The notes under the pieces: generated by a model
Told to the model about the DNA's origin: nothing
The model's input: only the letters and a program-made list of their open reading frames with translations
Databases searched by the model: none
Translations under genes and position numbers: made by a program
IMG/VR virus record: IMGVR_UViG_3300028794_000198
Span: 26,049-90,048 of that record
Reading direction: 5' to 3' (one strand)
From: a virus
Length of the DNA stretch: 64,000 bases
Shown: positions 20,561-62,755 of the stretch, piece after piece
How the letters are laid out: the number at the start of each line of letters is the position of its first letter
Numbering within the stretch: the first letter of the stretch is position 1

Positions 20561-20844
20561 GGCTGGTCGTCGCAGACGCACGCCTCGTGCGGGAACCAGC
20601 ACGGCCTGGGGTGGGCCTTTGAGGCGTCGCGGACGGCGATGATGGCGCCGATCTCGTCGTTGCTGAGGCCTTTGGCGAGGCGGTAGCTCTCGCGCCAGCC
20701 GTCGGCCTCCGCGTACTGCTCGTCGTTGTCGGCGAGGAGCCGCAGCGCTATGTCTCGCGCTTCCTGCACGGTCAAGGCGGGGTCGTTCAGGCGCTTGCGG
20801 ATCTGGTCGATCTCGTCGTTGGTGAGCGGCTGGTGGGTGGTCAT
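20557..20844 (-). CDS. Hypothetical protein
   Basis: 95 residues starting MTTHQPLTNDEIDQIRKRLN. Helical, acidic, with a C-terminal CWFPHEACVC cluster that may bind metal. Coupled both sides. Confidence 0.5.
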   Translation of the reverse strand: MTTHQPLTNDEIDQIRKRLNDPALTVQEARDIALRLLADNDEQYAEADGWRESYRLAKGLSNDEIGAIIAVRDASKAHPRPCWFPHEACVCDDQP

Positions 20845-21386
20845 CGGGGCTCCTCGCCTTCGGCCGGGTTGGTGACGGTGACGCCGTCGCGGGTGCGGGA
20901 CAGGACGCGGTCGTACTCGCGCTTGGGGTCGTCCCAGCCGCCTCCACCGCCATCGAGGGTGAGGGTTTTGGCGTTGGCGCGCTTCACCTTGTAGGTGCTG
21001 GTGACGGCGAGGTCGCGCCGGAAGTCGCGGACCTTGACGATGTCGCCGGGCTGGAAGTCGGAGCGCTGCCACGGCCGGGAGCGCGTCGCTTCGACTGCCG
21101 CAAGGTCCGCTACGTCTTTCGCCTGGCTCGCTTTCTGCTGCGCCCGGGCGGCCATCTCGCGGGCTTCGATGGCGCGGCGGGTGGCGTTGTCGGCGCGGTC
21201 GCGGTCGCGGACTGCGGACCGGTAGGAGTGGTGGCCGACGAGGAGCGGCTGCCCGCCGGCGAACCGGCCGTACATGCCGGATGCGTGGTCGCTCATCTGG
21301 TCGGCGGTCTTCTTGAGTTCGTCCGCTCGCCGTTGAAGACGCTCGGCGTCGCGCTGTTCGGGGTTTTCGTTCGCGGCGTCCACCAC
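20841..21386 (-). CDS. DUF3560-like coiled-coil protein
   Basis: 181 residues from a GTG with AGGAG upstream. RRADELKKTADQMSDHA then GGQPLLVGHHSYRSAVRDRDR is the signature of the DUF3560 family, followed by a long coiled coil and a C-terminal SH3-like part (FQPGDIVKVRDFRRDLA). DUF3560 proteins are frequent on mobile elements; function unknown. Confidence 0.7.
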   Translation of the reverse strand: MVDAANENPEQRDAERLQRRADELKKTADQMSDHASGMYGRFAGGQPLLVGHHSYRSAVRDRDRADNATRRAIEAREMAARAQQKASQAKDVADLAAVEATRSRPWQRSDFQPGDIVKVRDFRRDLAVTSTYKVKRANAKTLTLDGGGGGWDDPKREYDRVLSRTRDGVTVTNPAEGEEPR

Positions 21387-38359: not shown

Positions 38360-38529
38360 GTAGTCCTCCTCCGTGCTGCGCGTCGTGTCTCCCGGTTGGC
38401 GGGTGGTGGTGGGGCGAGTTCCTCGTCGTCGTCTTCGACCACGGTCTCGCTGGGTCGGACGATGACGGTCTCCCAGTCGCGGCCTCGCTTGCCGGCGTGT
38501 TCGCGGCGGGGGTTGGATGGGCCGGTCAC
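38356..38529 (-). CDS. Small basic/acidic protein (57 aa)
   Basis: GTG start in a GTGA overlap. VTGPSNPRREHAGKRGRDWE, then an acidic patch and an Arg-rich end. Unknown. Confidence 0.45.
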   Translation of the reverse strand: MTGPSNPRREHAGKRGRDWETVIVRPSETVVEDDDEELAPPPPANRETRRAARRRTT

Positions 38530-38813
38530 GGCTGGCCTCCGGTGTTGATGGCCCGCGCGATGGCAAGAGTTTCGGGTCCGCCGACGCGGTTGAGGAGGTC
38601 GGGGTCGAGTTCGCCGATGCGCGCCCATGCTTCGAAGACGTCGGCGAGGAGTGTGCCGACGTGGGGGTCCATGGCTGCCGGGTCGGGGCGCACGTTTCCG
38701 AAGAGGTCGCGGGTGCCTTTGCGGATCACGGCGCCGATCCCCTGTCCGGCTCGTTGGGCACGCTCACGCAACCGGGTTGCTGCGGCTCGGAGTTCGTCGC
38801 TGGGGCTGGTCAC
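38526..38813 (-). CDS. Hypothetical protein
   Basis: 95 residues from GTG. SDELRAAATRLRERAQRAG (helix) and VGTLLADVFEAWARIGEL. Recalls small actinophage helical proteins. Coupled both sides. Confidence 0.5.
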   Translation of the reverse strand: MTSPSDELRAAATRLRERAQRAGQGIGAVIRKGTRDLFGNVRPDPAAMDPHVGTLLADVFEAWARIGELDPDLLNRVGGPETLAIARAINTGGQP

Positions 38814-38989
38814 AGGTACTCCCTACGGTTGATCGTGATGTCGCTGATGGCGCGGAGCCGTTCTTCGGTGAGCAGTTCGCCGTGGCGTCCTTGTCCGCGT
38901 AGGTCTTGGAGGCGGGGGTCGACGGGTGTGGGAGCCCAGTCGGCTTCGTCGTCCTGCCAGAGGGGCTCGCAGTCGACGGGCGCGGTCAC
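38810..38989 (-). CDS. Hypothetical protein (59 aa)
   Basis: GTG start VTAPVDCEPLWQDDEADW. The C-terminal LRAISDITINRREYL is followed by the next gene in a 4-nt overlap. It overlaps the frame of the next upstream gene over its whole length; see 38823-39206. Confidence 0.55.
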   Translation of the reverse strand: MTAPVDCEPLWQDDEADWAPTPVDPRLQDLRGQGRHGELLTEERLRAISDITINRREYL

Positions 38990-49210: not shown

Positions 49211-49423
49211 TCAGGGCCCGGCGCGCGGGCGGGCGTGGTCGGGGCACAGGTCGCGCCCGTCCCGGGTCCATCGCCAGCCGCGGCCTTTGAGCAGTCGCCG
49301 GAGTTCGCGGTGGATGTGCGGCTCGAACCGGACGGGCCAGCTGCCTTCCGCTCCACAGCGGCCGTCGGATTCGGTCTGGTCTGCCGCGTCGCAGCGGAGG
49401 ACGAGGTAGGCGTCGGCGGTCAT
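49211..49423 (-). CDS. Small zinc-motif protein
   Basis: 70 residues from MTADAYLVLRCDAADQTE. One CxxxxxxC and a C-terminal LCPDHAR motif typical of short actinobacterial zinc proteins. ATGA coupled to the methyltransferase gene. Confidence 0.5.
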   Translation of the reverse strand: MTADAYLVLRCDAADQTESDGRCGAEGSWPVRFEPHIHRELRRLLKGRGWRWTRDGRDLCPDHARPRAGP

Positions 49424-50472
49424 GCGGCGGCCTCGCCTTCGTCGGCTGCACGCATGGGGATGCCGAAGGCGGCTGAGATGACGTGTTCGGCCAGAAGGCA
49501 CGGGACCGCGTTGCCGATCTGCTCGTAGCGCTTCGTCTGGCTCCCCTGGAACGGGTGGCCCACCGGGAAGCTCTGCACCAGCGCGGCGTCTTCCGGCGTG
49601 ACGCGGATGGTGTCCCGCCGTCCCCCGCGGTAGGCGGGGAGCTGGTCGGCGTCGACGATGCGCCTGCAGTCGATCCACCGGCCGGCGTCGCGTTCGCCGT
49701 ACAACGTGGCGCGGGCGCCGGAGCCTCCGACACAGGAGGGGTCGGGTCCGCCGGCCGCGGTGCCGACGGCGATGGTGAGTGCGGGCCGGTGGGTCATGCC
49801 CCAGCCGATGGCGTCGGCCATGGAGATCCACGGCTTGAGTCCGAAGGCTTCCTGTACCTGGGTCTCGCCCCTGCGATAGCGGTGGTGGGTGGGCTGCGGG
49901 AGCCGTGCTTCGCCGTTGAGGGTGGCGACGAGGAAGGCGCGGCTGCGGGTCTGCGGTACGCCGTACTCCTCGGCGGACAGGCGCCCGGTGGCGACGCTGT
50001 ATCCCTCGGCGCGCAGGTGTCCGGCGAAGGCTTCCCAGACGGGGAGCACGGTGGGCACCTGCTCCAGCAGGATCGTGCGGTACGGGCGTCCGGCGTCCTT
50101 CGCTTCCAGCGCCCAGCGCAGCGGCTCCAAGACGAGCCCGGTCCGCTCGTCGTCAAAGCCCTTCAGTGCCAGGGCGATGCTCTGCCGGGCGGTAAGCAGC
50201 TGCGCCAGGTCGAGGACGGTGTCGAGCGCCTTCCGCCCTCCACCCTTCCCTCCGACAGAGAATGGCTGACAAGGCGGAGAGCCGATCGCGGTGGTGGCGT
50301 CGGGGAAGTCGGCGGGCCCGTAGTCGCGGACGTCGCCTTCGACGGTTCCAAGCCCGGCCGCGCGCCGCGTCTCGCATGCGGCGTGGTCGCGTTCGATGCC
50401 GGTCACGTCCAGGCCGAGCCGGGTGGCGCCCACGTCCCAGCCGCCCGGCCCGGCGAAGAGGTCCACGATCAT
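49420..50472 (-). CDS. C5-cytosine DNA methyltransferase
   Basis: 350 residues. Motif I DLFAGPGGWDVG at the start binds SAM; GSPPCQPFS carries the catalytic Cys (motif IV); RTILLEQVPTV is in the motif VI region; YEQIGNAVPC is motif X. Transfers methyl to C5 of cytosine. Phages use these to escape host restriction. Coupled to the related gene upstream. Confidence 0.92.
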   Translation of the reverse strand: MIVDLFAGPGGWDVGATRLGLDVTGIERDHAACETRRAAGLGTVEGDVRDYGPADFPDATTAIGSPPCQPFSVGGKGGGRKALDTVLDLAQLLTARQSIALALKGFDDERTGLVLEPLRWALEAKDAGRPYRTILLEQVPTVLPVWEAFAGHLRAEGYSVATGRLSAEEYGVPQTRSRAFLVATLNGEARLPQPTHHRYRRGETQVQEAFGLKPWISMADAIGWGMTHRPALTIAVGTAAGGPDPSCVGGSGARATLYGERDAGRWIDCRRIVDADQLPAYRGGRRDTIRVTPEDAALVQSFPVGHPFQGSQTKRYEQIGNAVPCLLAEHVISAAFGIPMRAADEGEAAA

Positions 50473-51905
50473 GCCGCCGCCTCCTCGGTCTCGCCGTAGT
50501 GGCGTGCGACGAGGGGCTGCCAGTCGATGCCGGTTGCGGCGCCGACGACTGCTGCTGCGGCGCGGGGGCACCAGGCGTTGCCGACCTGCTCGAACTGCTT
50601 GGTCCTGGTGCCCTGCCACGGGTAGTCGGCGGGGAATGACTGGAGGACTGCCGCCTCAGTAACGGTGATGCGCACGGTGTCGGGGCTGGCGAACTGGGAC
50701 TCGCCGTCGCTTGAGCGGTCACGGTGGCCGGGCGGGGCGATCCTGTCGGTGGCGCACACGGTGGTGGCTGGTCGAGTATTGGTCCACTCGTACTCGTTGC
50801 GGGCGTTCCCGAACGCGAGGGTTGCGGCCGGCTCGTCCACCGTGCGTACCGTGGCGTTGGCGCGGGCGTTGTGCTTGAGCATCCACTGACTGCCGGATTG
50901 GACTGTAAAGGCAGGTGCGGGTGCGGTGTGCGGGTTGATCGTCTGCCTGGTGCCGTCCGGCTGCTGATGGCGGTTGGTGTGCAGGATCCAGGAGCGGGCC
51001 TTCTCGGTGAGAGCCCACGATGGCTCGTCGACGCCGAAGTTGTTGCCGCCCGGCGTCTTGCGGTCGCCGCGGGTGTTGACCACGTCGGATGCTTCCAGGT
51101 TGAGCGCCTGGGCCATGGACACCCACGGCTTCAGGCAGTCACCGAACAGGTCGTGTGCCGGATCCTCATCGTGGGTGGCATCGGGTGCGGCGACGCGGCG
51201 GACGCTGGACGCGATGAGTACGGCGCGTTTCCGTGTCTGCGGCACCCCGTAGTTGGCGGCGTTGAGGATGCCCGTCCATACCGACCAGCCGAGGCGGCGC
51301 AGTTCTTCGGCGTACACCTTCCACAGCGGGAGGACGCCGGGCACCTGCTCGAATGCCGCCCATTCCAGGGGTATGCCGCCGCTGGCGTCGCCGGTGATCA
51401 GAGCGTGCAGGTAGCGGGCGGGTTCGAGGATGAGGACGGTGACGAACGCGTCGTCGCGGGCCGCGGCCTCTACCTTGTCCTGCGTCCACGGCTTGCGGCG
51501 CTTGGCGTTGGCCGCCTGCTGCTCGGCGAGGGCGGCCGGGTAGATCTGGTCGCGGAGTTCCCGGCGGCAGTCATCGCCACGGAACATGCGCTGGATGCCG
51601 CTGGCGAGCAGACCCATGACCTTCAGGCCGAACTGCTTGCCGGCGGCGGAGAACTTGGTGCAGGGCGGGGAGAAGACGGCGCCCCAGACGCGGCCGACGA
51701 GCGGCGCCAGGACGAAGGAGGACACGTCGACGCGCACGGTCAGGTGCCCGGCGGCGGCCCGGGTCTTGCAGGCCGCCTCATCCCATTCGAGGCCGACGTC
51801 CTGGAGGCCGAGCATGCGGAGGCCTTCCGACCAGCCACCAGGACCCGCGAAGAGGTCGAGGATGATGCCCTTCTGCTGCGGGGCCCACGCGATGTTGAAA
51901 CTCAC
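50469..51905 (-). CDS. C5-cytosine DNA methyltransferase, longer variant
   Basis: 478 residues from GTG. Motif I DLFAGPGGWSEGL, catalytic FSPPCTKFSAAGK, EWAAFEQVPGV in the motif VI region and QVGNAWCPRAA as a modified motif X (GNAV replaced by GNAW). The ~130-residue insert between motifs VIII and X suggests a longer target-recognition domain, so specificity probably differs from its neighbour. Confidence 0.88.
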   Translation of the reverse strand: MSFNIAWAPQQKGIILDLFAGPGGWSEGLRMLGLQDVGLEWDEAACKTRAAAGHLTVRVDVSSFVLAPLVGRVWGAVFSPPCTKFSAAGKQFGLKVMGLLASGIQRMFRGDDCRRELRDQIYPAALAEQQAANAKRRKPWTQDKVEAAARDDAFVTVLILEPARYLHALITGDASGGIPLEWAAFEQVPGVLPLWKVYAEELRRLGWSVWTGILNAANYGVPQTRKRAVLIASSVRRVAAPDATHDEDPAHDLFGDCLKPWVSMAQALNLEASDVVNTRGDRKTPGGNNFGVDEPSWALTEKARSWILHTNRHQQPDGTRQTINPHTAPAPAFTVQSGSQWMLKHNARANATVRTVDEPAATLAFGNARNEYEWTNTRPATTVCATDRIAPPGHRDRSSDGESQFASPDTVRITVTEAAVLQSFPADYPWQGTRTKQFEQVGNAWCPRAAAAVVGAATGIDWQPLVARHYGETEEAAA

Positions 51906-52780
51906 GCGGCAGCCCCCAGCCCGGCCTTGGCCGTCTTCTCTTGCTGGGGGCGGACGCGCTTCTGTCCGCTGCGCCATTCCTGGACGATCTGGCGGACGGT
52001 GGAGATGGACACCTCGTTGTCGAGGCGGGCGAGGATCTGCTCAGGGGTGTCGCCGTGCCAGGCGAAGTGGATGATTTCTTCGCGGCGGAGTTCGGCCCGC
52101 TCGTGGAAGTTGAGCTGGACGGCTGGTGCGTCTGGCTCACAGTCGGGGTTGTCTATGTCGTCCCAGGCGCCGGGTGGCGCCCAGCCTTCGCGGGCGGCCC
52201 GTCGTTCGTTCTTCCAGTTGGTGCCGCGCTGGTGGACGAGTTGCCGGTAGGTCTCGGCGAGGGCGGTGGCCGCTTTGTTGTCGATGACGTTCCAGCGGGC
52301 TTCGGCGAGGAGGCTGATGCTGGCGATGCTGAGCCCGCTGCGTGTGGAGATGTCGGCGCGCCCGTGGCCGAGGCTGTAGAGGGCGCGGACGCGTCGGATG
52401 GATCCGATGGCGGGGCGTTCGGCGTTGCCGTCGAAGCGGTGTGGCCGGACGGTGAGGATCCGGCGGGCCACGTCCGCCTGGCAGGTTTTGTTGCGGCCGG
52501 TGGTGACGTAGGAGATGGCGGACTGGGCGACGCCGGCCTCTCGGGCGATCATGGTTTGGCTCATGCCGGTCGCACGCAGCATCAGGATGTGCGGCAGGAC
52601 TTCGGCGACGGGAACGAGGCTGCGTTCGCCGCGCTGGCGGCGGAGTTCCCGTTCCAGGTCGGCGCGCCGGTGGCCGCGCTGGCACAGCTTGCACCGGCAG
52701 GGCGGCCGGGTGCCGGTGCGGTTGCCCTTGTAGCGGGCATCGGTGCCGTGTTCGGGGATGGCGTTGGCTGCGGTGGTCAT
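51902..52780 (-). CDS. HTH DNA-binding protein
   Basis: 292 residues from MTTAANAIPEHGTDARYKGN. An N-terminal CRCKLCQRGH zinc site, then AREAGVAQSAISYVTTGRNK (HTH), a second possible HTH (ISTRSGLSIASISLLAEA) and a third near ISTVRQIVQEWRSG. Multiple HTHs suggest a repressor or origin binder. Coupled to the methyltransferase pair, so it may control them. Confidence 0.68.
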   Translation of the reverse strand: MTTAANAIPEHGTDARYKGNRTGTRPPCRCKLCQRGHRRADLERELRRQRGERSLVPVAEVLPHILMLRATGMSQTMIAREAGVAQSAISYVTTGRNKTCQADVARRILTVRPHRFDGNAERPAIGSIRRVRALYSLGHGRADISTRSGLSIASISLLAEARWNVIDNKAATALAETYRQLVHQRGTNWKNERRAAREGWAPPGAWDDIDNPDCEPDAPAVQLNFHERAELRREEIIHFAWHGDTPEQILARLDNEVSISTVRQIVQEWRSGQKRVRPQQEKTAKAGLGAAA

Positions 52781-54060: not shown

Positions 54061-54882
54061 CTACTGGGTGGGCGGTTGTGCGGTCTCGGGCCAGCCGCCG
54101 ACGGGCTCAAGCTCGGCCTCGACCGGGACGTCTTCCACGTCGGGGTCCGCAGCTTCGAGGACCCCGGCTGTGGAGCCGGCGGGCAGCGGCATGTCGGTGC
54201 GCTCGATGACGGCGCTGCGCTTCTCTGCGGAGGTGGGCACCCACTTGCCGAGGCGGCGGGCTGCGGTCTTCAGCCACATCGACTCTTCGTCGGTGCGCCA
54301 CGGCGAGTACTCACTGTCGGCGCCGTCGGACTTGGCCTTAGCCCGGTTGATGTGGGTGCGGCTGAGGACGACGACCTTGGAGGTCGCGCCGCCCTGCATG
54401 ACGGCGTAGGCGTACACGCCGACGAGATCGCCGCGCTCCCCGAACCAGTCGACGGTGTGAACGGGCCGTTCGTGGAGGCCGGGCACGTAGTTGAACTGGT
54501 CGCCCGCTCGGACGACTTCGACGACGACGGACGATGAGGCGCCCGCGTTGTAGATGAGTTCGACGATGCCCTGGTAGCCGACGATGCCCTGCACTTCGAG
54601 CTGGCCCTTGCGCTTGATGGGGCGCAGGTAGAACTGCTCGGTGCCGGGTTCGAGGCCGAGGCGGGCGGCGGTCATGAGGGCGCTCATGAGGCTGCCCGGG
54701 TTGGCCTGGGCGGCCTGGGCGAGCTTCGGGTTCTGGCGGAGGACGCCGACGGCGAGGCGGGCGAACGTGTCGACCCTGACGTGGCTGGCGGCGACGAGGG
54801 CGAGTTCGGGCTTGTACTGCTCAATGACGGAGGCGGGGCCTTCGTCGCGCTTCTCGATGGCGTTGCCGATGGGGCTGTTCAT
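54061..54882 (-). CDS. recT: RecT single-strand annealing protein
   Basis: 273 residues. ARLAVGVLRQNPKLAQA, then LMTAARLGLEPGTEQFYLRPIK, IVGYQGIVELIYNAGA and RTDEESMWLKTAARRL match the RecT core. RecT anneals complementary strands during phage recombination. It is coupled to the YqaJ exonuclease upstream, the usual pair that makes and uses ssDNA tails. Confidence 0.9.
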   Translation of the reverse strand: MNSPIGNAIEKRDEGPASVIEQYKPELALVAASHVRVDTFARLAVGVLRQNPKLAQAAQANPGSLMSALMTAARLGLEPGTEQFYLRPIKRKGQLEVQGIVGYQGIVELIYNAGASSSVVVEVVRAGDQFNYVPGLHERPVHTVDWFGERGDLVGVYAYAVMQGGATSKVVVLSRTHINRAKAKSDGADSEYSPWRTDEESMWLKTAARRLGKWVPTSAEKRSAVIERTDMPLPAGSTAGVLEAADPDVEDVPVEAELEPVGGWPETAQPPTQ

Positions 54883-55823
54883 GCTGCTTCCTTCTGCTGG
54901 TACGGGCTGAGGGACTTGGTGGTGCCGTCCGCTTTGGGGATGCGGTAGGCGATGCGGCGTTTGCCGACGACGGCCCGCTTGCCGGTGCCGATGTGGTCGA
55001 GGACGACGCCCTTCGCGGCGGCGAGTTCGACGGCGGCGGCCTTAGATGCGGCCTGCGCGTTTTGGTAGCGGTCCGCGTCGACGACAGGGATTTCGACGTC
55101 GACGTCTTCGAAGCCGTCGGGCTGAACCCGGATCGTCTGGTAGGTGTCGTCGGCGCCGTCGATCGGCGGCCGAACACCGTCACGGACTTCGTCGAGGAAC
55201 TTGACGGCGGCGTCGCGGAGGATCTGCGCTTCGGCCTCGTCGTAGTCGACGGTGTATTCGCGGTAGTCGTGGCCGGAGATGAGGACCGCGAACTGGGTGC
55301 GGCGCAGGCCGAGCGTGTCCATCTGCCAGATGACCTGGCAGCGGTACCAGAGCGGCACCCCGTCATCGGCGCCGGACGGGCCCCAGTCGTCTCCGAACGG
55401 GGACGTCTTCACCTCCAGCAGTTCCTCGGCCTGGTCCGACACCTCGAACTCGCCTGCGGGCTGCGGGTAGATGAGCCGGTCGGGGGTGGCGCGCTGCCAT
55501 TCCCGCTCCCGGTTGAACCAGGTGCCAGCCGGGGCGGCGAGTCGGCCCGGGTGCTCGTCCTCCCACTTCTGCGCGACCGGGTCTTCGAGCCGGCTCCCCC
55601 ACTCGATCCCCGACGTCATCTCGAACGGGGCGACGGCCAGGCCCGACTTCTTGTGCCACAGCGTGAAGCGCGACATCCACGGCGACAGGCCGACCACAGC
55701 GGCGATCTCGGTGGCGGTGATGGTGAGTCCGGCGCGGGCCGCATCCCACGCCTCTGTGCCGGGCGTGAGGTGCCCGATGAGGACGCCGTCAGGGGCGGGA
55801 TAGGGGTGTTGTGTGGTGCTCAC
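54879..55823 (-). CDS. YqaJ/RecB-type viral exonuclease
   Basis: 314 residues. GLTITATEIAAVVGLSPWMSRF, EWGSRLEDPVAQKW (family motif), LLEVKTSPFG supplying the E-x-K catalytic pair, and QVIWQMDTLG are characteristic of the YqaJ recombinase nuclease. It degrades one strand to create substrate for RecT. Confidence 0.88.
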   Translation of the reverse strand: MSTTQHPYPAPDGVLIGHLTPGTEAWDAARAGLTITATEIAAVVGLSPWMSRFTLWHKKSGLAVAPFEMTSGIEWGSRLEDPVAQKWEDEHPGRLAAPAGTWFNREREWQRATPDRLIYPQPAGEFEVSDQAEELLEVKTSPFGDDWGPSGADDGVPLWYRCQVIWQMDTLGLRRTQFAVLISGHDYREYTVDYDEAEAQILRDAAVKFLDEVRDGVRPPIDGADDTYQTIRVQPDGFEDVDVEIPVVDADRYQNAQAASKAAAVELAAAKGVVLDHIGTGKRAVVGKRRIAYRIPKADGTTKSLSPYQQKEAA

Positions 55824-55884
55824 TTCTGGTGCTCCTGTTCGCTTCTGAGCTGCGTGTTCGGCGTGAAATGGGTGTCGAATGCCG

Positions 55885-55928
55885 GGCCTCGCCGCCCGCG
55901 ACCGGGGGGTGGTTGGGGCGGCGAGGCC
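55885..55928 (-). terminator. Strong hairpin terminator
   Basis: GGCCTCGCCGCCC / GGGCGGCGAGGCC, thirteen perfect pairs with an 18-nt loop, between the clamp-like gene stop and the exonuclease start. Confidence 0.65.
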
Positions 55929-55993
55929 TCGGCTGGCGTCCGGAGCGGCTTGGGGGAAGCGCGCTCAACGGGCGCCGTCTGTGGGGTTGTTGG

Positions 55994-57190
55994 TCAGGCG
56001 GTGGCGTCAGCCGTGGCGGTCTCGGCGGGCTGCGGCTTGATGGCCTTCCACTCGCTGGCTTCGGCGTCGAACGTGACGTGCGGGTTGTCGTCGACGCGGA
56101 AGCCGATCCCGGCGTCCTTCGCGTCGTTCAGCGCGAGCGCCAACCGGACCGCCCACTTGCGGGGCTCCTCGGCGTACTGCTTGGCGAGGCGGGCTTCGTA
56201 GTCGTCGTTCCACTGCTTGGGGTTGAAGCCGGACTGTTCGGCCATGTCGTAGGCCCACTCGCCGAGTTCGCCGGAGTCGAGCTGTTCGGCGGTGTCCTCG
56301 ACGACGGCGCGGGCGGCGCGCGGGTCGACCTGGTGGAGGGCGTCGAGGTAGCGGTAGGCCATCCAGTCGGAGACGCCGGAGCGGATGTGCGCGAACCAGG
56401 CGTCCTGGTCGTCGTCGAAGGACGTGTTGTAGACGTTCGACGTCGAGTCGAGGACCCCCTTGAGCAGGTTGGCGGCGGTCTCGTCGATGCTGCGGGTGGC
56501 CCACAAGCGGGACGGCTCCGGGAGCGGCAGGCTGGCCATGTCGACGTCGGCGGCCCCGGCGGCCAACGTCCACAGCCACAGGCTGTGTGCGGAGTCGAAG
56601 GTCTGCTCCTTGGTCGGGCCGATGCTGCCGCCACCGGACGGCATCTGTGCGCCGATGAAGTCCTCGCCGAAGAACAGGACGGCCTTCCGGTCGGCGGTGA
56701 TGCGGGTGCGGAGGCTCTGCTCGGCGGCCGACCACTTGCGGAAGAGGTCGGAGTTGAGGGCCGGGAACGGTTCGCCGTCGACGGTCTGGGCGGCGATGGT
56801 GCGGAGCAGGCCGCGCCAGTCGGGGAACTCCAGGCTGAGGCTGACGGCGACGTTGAGGTCGGAGAGCGGGCCATCGAAGACCAGCCGGGCTTCCTCGGTG
56901 GCGCTGATGGTGATGTAGCTGGCGCCCTTCATCGCACCGACCCACTCGCGGAGGGCGGGCACGATGTCGCCGGGGATGGTGGCCGCCCACGGCTCCTGGT
57001 TCTGGTCGCCGCTGTCGAGGCGGAAGCGGGCGGCGGCGATCGTGAACCGATCCGTGGCGACGGCGTACAGGTACTGGCTGTCGACGTCGAGGCGGATGCC
57101 GTACAGGGGCTCGAAGCCGTCGTGGCCCATGTGGGCGGCCGTCTTGTCGAGGAGGAGCTTCAGCTGATGGGCGTTGATCGTGACGGACAC
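55994..57190 (-). CDS. Sliding-clamp-like (DnaN-type) protein
   Basis: 398 residues from GTG with AGGAGA upstream. The N-terminus VSVTINAHQLKLLLDKTAAH and LYAVATDRFTIAAARF, then SLSLEFPDWRGLL and DFIGAQMP follow DnaN domains I and II (aTDr, FPdw, mP motifs). The C-terminal ~150 residues (DQVDPRAARAVVEDTAEQL...) replace the third clamp domain with an acidic helical region. No polymerase gene is seen here, so it may hijack the host polymerase or act in recombination. Confidence 0.72.
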   Translation of the reverse strand: MSVTINAHQLKLLLDKTAAHMGHDGFEPLYGIRLDVDSQYLYAVATDRFTIAAARFRLDSGDQNQEPWAATIPGDIVPALREWVGAMKGASYITISATEEARLVFDGPLSDLNVAVSLSLEFPDWRGLLRTIAAQTVDGEPFPALNSDLFRKWSAAEQSLRTRITADRKAVLFFGEDFIGAQMPSGGGSIGPTKEQTFDSAHSLWLWTLAAGAADVDMASLPLPEPSRLWATRSIDETAANLLKGVLDSTSNVYNTSFDDDQDAWFAHIRSGVSDWMAYRYLDALHQVDPRAARAVVEDTAEQLDSGELGEWAYDMAEQSGFNPKQWNDDYEARLAKQYAEEPRKWAVRLALALNDAKDAGIGFRVDDNPHVTFDAEASEWKAIKPQPAETATADATA

Positions 57191-57258
57191 GTCTTCTCCT
57201 GAGAGAGTGGTGGTGGACTCCCGCCGACTTCGCCTCGGCGGGGTTCTTGCGTTGGGCG

Positions 57259-57291
57259 CCGGCTGGCCGGGAGGGTGCACCGGCCAGCCGG
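57259..57291 (-). terminator. Hairpin terminator
   Basis: CCGGCTGGCCGG / CCGGCCAGCCGG, a perfect twelve-base stem with a 9-nt loop, five bases after the coiled-coil gene stop. Confidence 0.75.
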
Positions 57292-59986: not shown

Positions 59987-60222
59987 GCCGCACCACCGAG
60001 CGTGATGCCGAGGCGGCGGGCGAACTCCACGAACGGCGGGTGGTCTTCGGCGCGGGCGGCGAGAGTGCCGGCCTCGATCAGGCTGGCCACGTGAATCACG
60101 TCGATCTCGACGTGCGAGACACCCGCCTCGTCCGTATAGGGGATGGTGTTGATGCCGAGCTCGGCACACAGGTGCTTGATCACGGCGGTGGTGTCGTCCG
60201 ACGCGGGGGTCTGGTCGCTCAT
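59983..60222 (-). CDS. Hypothetical protein (79 aa)
   Basis: ATG 60222 coupled to the RAMP gene stop by a 4-nt overlap. MSDQTPASDDTTAVIKHLC, beta strands (HVEIDVIHVAS) and a C-terminal helix. Because it is translationally linked to the Cas7-like gene it could belong to the same system, but nothing in the sequence shows a function. Confidence 0.5.
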   Translation of the reverse strand: MSDQTPASDDTTAVIKHLCAELGINTIPYTDEAGVSHVEIDVIHVASLIEAGTLAARAEDHPPFVEFARRLGITLGGAA

Positions 60223-60890
60223 GCGGTGGCCTCCCACTTGATGACCTCGTACCTGCCGAAGCCCTGCGAGCGGGAAGCGCCGACGCCCTGCTGTTCGCCG
60301 GTGAGCCAGAGCATGGCCCACTCTTCGTCGGTGAACGCGTAGTCGGAGATGACCGTGAAGTCGAACTCGGCGGTCTCGATGAACTCCGTGTACTGGATGC
60401 CGGTTTGGCCGGTGCGCGGGTTCTTCGGGAAGGACTGGAGGACGCCGGTGGGCTCGGTGACGCCGAGGTGGAGCTTGTCCTCGACGACCATGATGTGTTC
60501 GGCGACGAAGCCTTGGACGCCCTTGTTGGTGGAGCCCCAGCGGGACTTCAGCTTGTCGACGGAGCGGGCGACGGACGCGGCTTCCTTGATCGCGGCCTTC
60601 AACTGGCGGCCTTCGATGTACAAGCCGTCCTCGTCGCGACGGAAGCCGTTGAGGTGCTTGTTGGTGTCGACGAGCTTCGCGGCCTCGTCGGCGGTGACGC
60701 CTCGGTCGACCATGGTCTGGGCGACCATCTCGCGGATCAGGTCGTCCTTGTCGGCGAGTTTGGTTCGCAGCCAGCCCTCGGCGACCTTCGGGTCAGTCGG
60801 CGTGCCGCCTGCGATGTTCTTCACGCGGATGGTGCCGTGGAAGCGGTGGGGCCACGCCTTGTCGGTGAAGCTGGCGAAGATGCTGGTCAT
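60219..60890 (-). CDS. Stand-alone RAMP-superfamily (Cas7-like) protein
   Basis: 223 residues. After a first strand (FHGTIRVKNIAGG) comes a helical insert, then DEDGLYIEGRQLKAAIKEAA (85-104), which resembles the small-residue/helix motif of Cas7/Csm3-type RAMPs (IPGSSLKGALR-like). The C-terminal GVGASRSQGFGRYEV (202-216) is a textbook RAMP glycine-rich loop. RAMP proteins bind repeat RNA or guide RNA, and some cleave it. The ATG has AAAGGA upstream and lies at the 3' end of a degenerate repeat array on the same strand (60905-61647). No other cas gene is in the window. I infer an RNA-guided or RNA-processing role; family placement is by motif only. Confidence 0.78.
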   Translation of the reverse strand: MTSIFASFTDKAWPHRFHGTIRVKNIAGGTPTDPKVAEGWLRTKLADKDDLIREMVAQTMVDRGVTADEAAKLVDTNKHLNGFRRDEDGLYIEGRQLKAAIKEAASVARSVDKLKSRWGSTNKGVQGFVAEHIMVVEDKLHLGVTEPTGVLQSFPKNPRTGQTGIQYTEFIETAEFDFTVISDYAFTDEEWAMLWLTGEQQGVGASRSQGFGRYEVIKWEATA

Positions 60891-60904: not shown

Positions 60905-61647
60905 TCGGTGACCTGGGCGGTCGTGTGGGCTGCGGCGGAGTGGGCTGAGTTGGAATGGGTAGTCGGCTAGGCCTGGCCTGCGGAGGGTTGGCAAGTCGTC
61001 ATGGGACGGTGGGCGCCGAGGCGAGACGGGAAGAGCAGTCGTTGCGGGCGGGCTCGGGTCGAGGCGGATCGAGATGGCATGTCGGTTGGAGCGAGTCGTG
61101 ATGTGTGGCGAGGTGGCGAGCCGGACCGGGTAGTCGGTCGGAGCTGGGCCGGGGTGGCTGGTCCAGGCCGGGGCGGGGGTGTCGGAGGGCTTGGCTCGGA
61201 CTGTGCGGCGACGAGCCGGATTGGGAAGTCGGCACGGGATGGGGTGGGTGGCCGGGCCTCGTGTCGGGCAGTCGGTACGGCGTGGTGAGGGTGGGCTTGG
61301 CACGTCGACGCGAGTCAGAGCGGGCTGGTTGGTGAAGCGACGGATAGTCGGCATGGGTAGCGCTGAACTGCGCGGGGCAGGAGGGGGCAGAAAAGTCGGC
61401 TGGGTGGGGCGGCAGCGGGAAGCCCTGCGTAGGGGCGCGTAGTCGACGAGGGGCGGGAAGTAACGGCCCGGGTTGATCCGTCGGCATGGGGTGTGGAGGC
61501 TGGCGCGGTGGCGAAAAGAAAAGTCGGCAAGAGTTGGGATGAGGTGCGGTCGCGTGGCGTCGGGAAGTCGTTCCGAGTGGGGTGGAAACGCCTGGGCGTG
61601 AATAGTCGAGGAGGTGTGAGGCGCGGTGTGTCGGCCGGTGCTCTTCG
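60905..61647 (-). repeat. Array of ~16 short degenerate repeats upstream of the RAMP gene
   Basis: On the minus strand the core (C)CGAC(T) recurs with its first base complementary to a plus-strand GTCG at 60962, 60995, 61038, 61081, 61133, 61181, 61228, 61271, 61304, 61347, 61395, 61442, 61480, 61523, 61567, 61605 and possibly 61630. Steps are 33, 43, 43, 52, 48, 47, 43, 33, 43, 48, 47, 38, 43, 44 and 38 nt. AGTCG itself appears 13 times on the plus strand in this region. An extended unit near CCCNTGCCGACTNCCC is visible in several copies. Segments between are unlike one another. The motif occurs in all three frames, so it is not a protein repeat. The minus strand is C-rich (61141-61200: 34 G and 13 C on the plus strand). 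It ends ~50 nt before the RAMP start. Confidence 0.8.
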
Positions 61648-62208
61648 TCATGCCGCTGCTCGCGGCATCGCTCGCGGTCCCTGCTGGGTGACGGAGCGGT
61701 ACATCTCCAGGTACTGCGCCTCTGTGAAGACCTCGCCGACCAACTGGCCGCCGATCTTCTTGCCGACCGCCCGGTGGAACGCCGCCTCCAACTTCGAGAT
61801 CCGCGCCGCGTCCTCGTACTTCGAGGCGACGAACCGGCAGTCGTCGGCGGTCATGTTCGCCACCGTCCGACGGGTGTTGTCCTCGTCGACCACGTACTCG
61901 GCGGCGAAGGGGTGCAACGCCGTGACGTCACCACCGGCGAAACTGCGGGCCGCCTCGGCGAACGCCCTGCGCGGGGCGCCGATCCGGGCCGCCTGCCGCT
62001 TGCTGTTCGACCTGCGGGCCACGACGTCCGCGAGGATCACCGCCGCCTTCAAGTCCAGCCACCCGGCCAGCAGTTCCGGGTCCTGCGCCCTCAGGTGCTC
62101 CACGAGGTCGGCGGCAACCATCGACGCCACGTAGTCACCTGCGGGAATCGCACCCTCGACCGCCTCGGCCATCTCGGTGATGAAGTCGCGGTCTGTCACA
62201 CTGGACAC
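61648..62208 (-). CDS. Hypothetical early protein upstream of the repeat array
   Basis: 186 residues from GTG 62208, chosen because AAAGGAGG lies seven bases upstream. Acidic helical start (FITEMAEAVEGAIPAGDYV), YVASMVAADLVEHLRAQ, a basic ARRSNSKRQAARIG patch, and a helical end. The stop is at the start of the array. No motif recognised; a role with the array is possible only by position. Confidence 0.6.
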   Translation of the reverse strand: MSSVTDRDFITEMAEAVEGAIPAGDYVASMVAADLVEHLRAQDPELLAGWLDLKAAVILADVVARRSNSKRQAARIGAPRRAFAEAARSFAGGDVTALHPFAAEYVVDEDNTRRTVANMTADDCRFVASKYEDAARISKLEAAFHRAVGKKIGGQLVGEVFTEAQYLEMYRSVTQQGPRAMPRAAA

Positions 62209-62288
62209 GCGGCCCCTCCTTTCTTGTGGTGAGTTCAGGTGGGTCGCTTCGGCCGGTCGCCTCTGGTGGCCGGCCTTCTCCTTGCCGG

Positions 62289-62552
62289 TCATGCGGCGGC
62301 GCGGGCCGGCTTGTTGAACGGCTGGACCGTGAACTGCTCCGTGATCGCCCGGATGTTGAGCCCGGAGAACCAGATCTTGTTGCCGTTGTTCACGTGGGGG
62401 ATTTCGCGGGCGAACGCCTTCAGGGCGAGCTGGCGAGCGCTGAAGGGGAGCCAGAGCGCAGCCTCAGTGGGCTGGTAGTGGAAGAGCTCGCCCTCGGGAC
62501 TGCTGGGTGCGGGAAGGTTCTCCCGGACCGGGGGAAGCTTGCGGGGGGCCAC
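62289..62552 (-). CDS. Small HTH-like protein
   Basis: 87 residues from GTG with AGGAG upstream. LWLPFSARQLALKAFAREIP and NKIWFSGLNIRAITEQF have the look of a small helix-turn-helix or excisionase/Cro-like protein. It lies directly after the Xre gene in the same direction, as a cro/xis-type gene would. Confidence 0.55.
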   Translation of the reverse strand: MAPRKLPPVRENLPAPSSPEGELFHYQPTEAALWLPFSARQLALKAFAREIPHVNNGNKIWFSGLNIRAITEQFTVQPFNKPARAAA

Positions 62553-62554
62553 GG

Positions 62555-62755
62555 TTACTCCTGGTGGGTGATGTCGTTGGGGGTGACACCCAGTGCGTCC
62601 GCGACTTTCTCGATGTTCTTGTCGCTCAGGCCGACGAGTCCGCGTTCGACTCGGGAGAGGTGCGACTTGTGGATCCCCGTCTTGACGGAGAGCGTGGGCA
62701 GGCTCATTTTTAGAGCCCTCCTTCTGAAGCGGATAGCGCTGGAGTGCGGTCTCAC
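62555..62755 (-). CDS. Xre-family HTH protein (Cro-like)
   Basis: 66 residues from a GTG. FRRRALKMSLPTLSVKTGIHKSHLSRVERG is a full Xre HTH (helix 2 to recognition helix SHLSRVERG), then NIEKVADALGVTPNDI. The longer start is used because it supplies helix 1. Divergent from the 62972-63496 regulator, it resembles a lambda-type Cro/CI pair. Confidence 0.78.
   Translation of the reverse strand: MRPHSSAIRFRRRALKMSLPTLSVKTGIHKSHLSRVERGLVGLSDKNIEKVADALGVTPNDITHQE

Follow-up and report, generated by a model that had tools for sequence, protein, structure and literature searches.

Viral Interference Programmable Repeat (VIPR) systems have been described in Escherichia phage SUSP1 and in Pseudomonas fulva (bioRxiv 2026.04.26.720920, PMC13142463). 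According to this 2026 preprint, an ancestral phage RAMP works with a guide RNA built of YNNGG pentamers, which reads its target as NN dinucleotides with one skipped base, and Vipr proteins are reported to coat the pentanucleotide-repeat guide RNA like a Cas7 backbone (PMC13142463). The published system binds dsDNA, with targets on both strands, and is proposed both as an ancestor of CRISPR and as a phage weapon against rival phages. The preprint also gives GGY/NN as the consensus of type II, allows 'a related consensus' for other types, mentions seven types and staggered arrays, and describes a structured 3′ tail on each guide RNA of the SUSP1 clade (PMC13142463). We located the SUSP1 locus in KT454805, where YNNGG tracts are visible in the flanks of vipr.

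Here we describe a phage locus in which a vap-like gene, a guide array and vipr (RAMP) follow one another in this order and very probably make up an RNA-guided system of the VIPR type. It lies in a stretch of 64,000 nucleotides, hereafter the window, which is part of a 90,048-base IMG/VR record; in the first 25 kb, the nucleotide matches to deposited phages are all to Streptomyces phages. The features are as follows.

60219..60890, minus strand: vipr-like gene for a 223-aa Cas7-like RAMP with G-loop GVGASRSQGFGR (ORF, homologues, AlphaFold2 model, Foldseek)
60927..61642, minus strand: guide array, 716 nt, non-coding, with 15 NNRCCGAC motifs and 102 NN-N-Y-C pentamers (block model)
61353..61394, minus strand: guide u7, TT TG CC TG CG AG AG TA AT, between CAGCCGAC and ATGCCGAC; decodes to YLLRHGHK codons of an integrase
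61651..62292, minus strand: vap-like accessory gene, 213 aa, of no named family; conserved neighbour
62555..62755, minus strand: Cro/CI-type HTH regulator (Pfam HTH_3, E 6e-10), upstream of the VIPR locus and co-directional with it

As in VIPR, cas genes are absent, and a small phage RAMP is flanked by non-coding tandem pentanucleotide repeats, in which NN is hypervariable, and has an accessory gene next to it. Also alike are the reading of targets with a 1-nt skip at the wobble position of codons (here by computation) and the location of targets in competing phages and other VIPR loci. However, the window family has the consensus NN-N-Y-C (GRS/NN on the other strand) instead of GGY/NN, and its units are chained head to tail by NNRCCGAC, often 10–40 per locus. 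No conserved structured tail was found in the window family, unlike the SUSP1 clade, and its strong targets are mostly antisense to genes, whereas those reported for SUSP1 lie on both strands. Because the preprint allows 'a related consensus', NN-N-Y-C excludes type II and not VIPR as a whole. We place the locus in VIPR, broadly defined, as a variant that differs in consensus, array form and target orientation. It may be one of the seven published types, and since related consensuses, seven types and staggered arrays are all mentioned in the preprint, we do not claim a new type.

Cas7/Csm3 backbones of types III and VII have in common with the window protein the RRM/RAMP fold and the glycine-rich loop, and a periodic register on the guide is likely for the window RAMP as well. 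In contrast to these systems, the locus has a single RAMP, no cas operon, no palindromic CRISPR repeat and a period of 5 nt rather than 6 nt. It also departs from class 1 CRISPR-Cas in that its neighbours are phage genes and its array motifs are degenerate, 8 nt long and without fold. In TIGR-Tas, too, a single protein goes with a tandem guide array encoded by a phage; however, mining that started from a Cas9 RNA-interaction domain reportedly uncovered the Tas proteins (PMC12045711), whereas the window protein has a RAMP fold.

The RAMP protein and its gene neighbourhood

The vipr-like ORF starts with the ATG at 60890 and its stop ends at 60219, on the minus strand. The original prediction had placed a Cas7-like RAMP of 223 residues at exactly these coordinates, and the two motifs that it quoted, GRQLKAAIKEAA and GVGASRSQGFGRYEV, are both present in the protein. 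It had proposed structure prediction as the check, and the fold agrees with its assignment. The AlphaFold2 model (pLDDT 79, pTM 0.74) gave 126 matches at E<0.001 in a Foldseek search of the PDB, headed by type VII Cas7 and type III Csm3-type chains (E 1.4e-7, probability 1.00, TM ~0.5). Each of the 50 PDB matches listed is a chain from a complex that contains Cas7 (type III Csm/Cmr, type VII and Cas7-11), with E from 1e-7 to 5e-5, and Cas6 is not among them. Three matches in a viral structure library were significant, one of them named 'Cas system-associated RAMP superfamily protein'. The model supports a single small RAMP with an RRM core and a G-loop.

A Pfam search with the protein gave no match, and the profile matches below threshold, which agree with a RAMP, comprise the Cas6 G-loop (PADLOC, E 0.004), Csm3 (E 0.011) and NCBIfam Cas6 (E 0.018; TIGR01877, 15.5 bits against a curated cut-off of 58.65). 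The sole PHROG match, to phrog_4652, is weak (E 0.057); the relative L041 reaches 0.0023 with the same family and SUSP1 Vipr itself 1.4e-96. Direct similarity to SUSP1 Vipr is weak at the sequence level, with a collinear hhalign alignment of 12% probability (P 0.0024).

Relatives of the RAMP were found in about 40 IMG/VR loci at 31–100% identity, and Microcystis phage Mae-JY09 (PP395641) is the only deposited phage with one, 32% identical. Retention of the gene in these contigs and in Mae-JY09 indicates more than a chance ORF. In an alignment of 34 homologues (32–93% identity to the window protein), residues G202, G204, R207, S208, G212, K98, A99, K102 and E103 are invariant, and conservation peaks in the G-loop and the GLYIEGRQLKAAIKE segment. 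A tblastn search of plasmids gave no match, and a profile scan seeded with a pattern, of incomplete sensitivity, found no relatives in 84,980 genomes.

Pfam and PHROG annotation of the window showed phage genes and no cas genes near the RAMP. Its description as stand-alone is correct in this respect, but the gene is accompanied by an RNA array of its own and by an accessory gene that is conserved. The predicted phage early-operon setting is also seen, with HTH regulators and RecE/RecT around the RAMP gene; the RecT-like and RecE-like genes lie downstream in the same operon (54061-57280), together with a protein weakly matching RusA and a DNA polymerase processivity factor. At 49420-51977, two adjoining minus-strand ORFs resemble, by eye, DNA cytosine methyltransferases (DLFAGPGG...). 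The accessory factor is probably encoded by the vap-like gene. Homologues (E<=1e-8) adjoin the array or vipr in 23 of the 40 family loci searched, and in one locus (L034) the gene comes after vipr. Its protein matches nothing in Pfam or PHROG and, as a further difference from VIPR, has no detectable similarity to SUSP1 vap1.

Grammar and distribution of the guide arrays

The array starts 8 bases past the vap stop and ends 36 bases ahead of the vipr start, and the whole region between the stop of the 62292-61651 gene and the RAMP start is C-rich and G-poor. Its block score is 189.5, compared with at most 19.9 in 1000 local shuffles and a threshold of 18 for the block model, and its C autocorrelation at lag 5 has a z of 7.1. 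By these two measures, nothing comparable occurs elsewhere in the window. Consecutive CCGAC motifs are often 33, 38, 43, 48, 53 or 58 bases apart, which is 3 modulo 5. Among 144 motif copies from 19 loci, positions 4, 9, 14, 19, 24, 29 and 34 after the motif start are C in at least 83%, and each fifth base counted backward from a CCGAC-type motif is likewise mostly C. C periodicity on both sides of the motif, with a phase reset, thus defines the grammar as NNRCCGAC followed by NN-N-Y-C pentamers, and the units lead straight into the next NNRCCGAC. The whole array is no more folded than its shuffles (z +0.97), and a search of the region against Rfam gave nothing meaningful, the match to a frameshift element (E 0.89) being chance.

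About 35 related contigs have arrays beside the RAMP gene, among them those of relatives with 31% identity and that of Mae-JY09. Nearly all relatives with enough flanking sequence carry one; most arrays score 40–330 and a few are near the threshold. In Mae-JY09, the array is unannotated, has nine motifs and directly follows the RAMP gene (20719-21081 of the locus L010; about 38467-38829 of the record). Across ~2.05 Mb of relatives' contigs, clear arrays were confined to the vipr locus with one exception. This second array-like region, in G022 (145411-149658, or L107:5411-9658), extends over 4.2 kb with 83 motifs and looser pentamers (often NNGTC or NNNTC); it is some 40 kb away from vipr, and no second vipr was detected nearby.

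Arrays of relatives can precede or follow vipr, and in two loci they are on the opposite strand; the array is therefore not simply a 5′ leader. In 30 of 42 cases, the array is co-directional with both flanking genes; one array in L034 is opposite to both neighbours. The flanking genes suggest that the C-rich strand, which is that of vipr, is transcribed, and the GGY-like look of the opposite strand (GRS/NN) counts against this.

Dinucleotide code and targets

Pentamer positions 0 and 1 are nearly even in base composition in the close clade of the window, and position 4 is 90–98% C in all clades. Between related phages, 32 orthologous units showed 12 changes in NN compared with 39 at positions 2-3 (p 2e-4).

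Targets were searched with the NN series of each unit, with 0–3 skipped bases, in the relatives' contigs with arrays masked (248 guides). Skip 1 gave matches of 18/18 (E 1.4e-5), 19/20 and 17/18, and skips of 0, 2 or 3 gave no comparable match in this set. The matches start directly after CCGAC and end at the NN of the following motif, and these borders define the extent of a guide. The 18/18 match of a relative's guide falls in a terminase large subunit (phrog_9). IMG/VR has 44 contigs with the skip-1 pattern of this guide, which in about 40 falls on PLCGFFEVY or PLCGFFDVY codons, compared with two contigs for the skip-2 control; the 44 count as one event because they represent one gene family. 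One of them, L204, shares its sample of origin with the guide-carrying phage. The 19/20 and 17/18 matches are between guides of G032 and the VIPR locus of its relative G031, in a vap-like gene (named by eye) and a small ORF. The homologous vap-like site of G032 itself has about five mismatches in 20 NN bases, by eye from the alignment.

At E<0.1, 8 of 13 matches are antisense to the gene and have the skipped base in the third codon position, whereas 40 permutations averaged 2.2 and did not exceed 6; at E<0.01, the count is 4 of 5 compared with 0.28. This count rests on codon-model gene calls, and becomes 10 of 13 when long spurious antisense ORFs are taken as genes. Nearly all targets of at least 18 bases, read on the vipr strand, are antisense to a gene, and there were no sense-strand wobble matches among them.

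Several further observations were made in relatives. The related phages G031 and G032 (L048/L049) each have three arrays around vipr, and a G031 guide matches G032 at 17/20. One or more G032 guides also match, more weakly, the vipr gene of G031, and the carrier's own sites differ where checked. G014 and G011 (L096/L085) share an orthologous guide, AT TT TG CC CG TC A.., with changed scaffold bases and most NN kept, and both copies match the same G026 gene, by eye a glycosyltransferase. In L037 and L080, guides match inside the carrier's own contig.

In the window, guide u7 has the skip-1 pattern TTxTGxCCxTGxCGxAGxAGxTAxAT, which matches Streptomyces prophage integrases at 18/18 bases and is antisense to the integrase gene (phrog_1, E 5.6e-25). 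The pattern occurs in two IMG/VR contigs, both at the same integrase motif MYLLRHGHK, and 12 times in 84,980 GTDB genomes. All four Streptomyces matches are in this integrase, with differing synonymous bases at the skipped positions, and the remaining eight are in unrelated taxa and genes without consistent phase. Since they belong to one gene family, the Streptomyces matches count as one event, for which our own GC-adjusted estimate of the chance expectation in Streptomyces is ~0.02, before a mobile-element gene, antisense orientation and wobble register are required. With up to two mismatches, u7 had five matches in 121 Streptomyces genomes, including two more integrases, compared with seven for the reversed-pattern control. 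Searches with u12a, u12b, u6 and u8 gave no convincing target, so that u7 is so far the one window guide of about 15 with such a target.

Mechanism, alternatives and significance

The fold, the array grammar, its linkage to the gene, the NN constraint, the skip-1 code and the target genes were computed; for transcription, processing, RNA binding, stoichiometry and repression, the following scheme draws on VIPR and Cas7 biology. The array would be transcribed, probably inside the minus-strand early operon, and the unit between two CCGAC motifs would be cut out as one guide. In each pentamer, NN would carry the information and N-Y-C would form a scaffold gripped by the protein. The RAMP may multimerise on the guide RNA with one subunit per pentamer, as a Cas7-like backbone in a 5-nt instead of a 6-nt register. 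Coating of a pentanucleotide-repeat guide RNA, as reported for Vipr proteins, is its most likely role, and is favoured over Cas6-like processing because of the adjacent array. The complex would then read its target as NN dinucleotides with one skipped base, usually at the codon wobble position, and repress genes of competing elements; u7 points at a Streptomyces prophage integrase.

The same RAMP and array may instead act on mRNA rather than on dsDNA, the C-rich transcript pairing antisense as in the Cas7 backbones of types III and VII. We regard this as possible, at well below even odds. The antisense orientation of nearly all targets of at least 18 bases and of u7 allows such a version, provided that the C-rich strand is the transcript, which the 30 co-directional arrays favour; the nearest folds, moreover, are RNA-targeting type III and VII backbones. 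However, published VIPR binds dsDNA and has both strands as targets (PMC13142463), the targets found here are few, and a guide from the G-rich strand would be sense to its target and could act on DNA only.

That the array is a protein-binding or regulatory element, such as a Rho-type leader rich in C or a site through which the RAMP regulates itself, is very improbable. Its C-rich, G-poor composition and its place in the operon directly ahead of the vipr start would suit such a role, but arrays also occur downstream or on the other strand, NN is constrained between relatives, and decoded targets exceed permuted controls and keep guide borders. More improbable still is that the protein works alone as a Cas6-like nuclease on CRISPR RNA from the host or other elements, to which the weak Cas6 profile matches over the G-loop could point, since the match spans 46 residues and falls far short of its cut-off, the fold matches are to Cas7/Csm3, and a dedicated pentamer array accompanies the gene.

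As a VIPR-type system, the locus provides independent computational support for the noncontiguous code of VIPR, from a divergent family whose repeats have another consensus. The window family adds decodable natural guides with named targets, namely a prophage integrase, a phage terminase and rival VIPR genes, and raises the strand question of whether the target is RNA or DNA. No annotation covers such arrays, and hence they are easily missed; a simple block model detects them from sequence alone. More tentatively, and somewhat less probable in our view than action on mRNA as such, the family could represent a branch of VIPR that has gone unreported and is common in high-GC phages. Its pentamer code would be based on C, and its multi-guide arrays, delimited by CCGAC, would be cut into short tail-less guides that act antisense on transcripts. 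If so, noncontiguous reading would serve RNA targeting besides the published DNA targeting.
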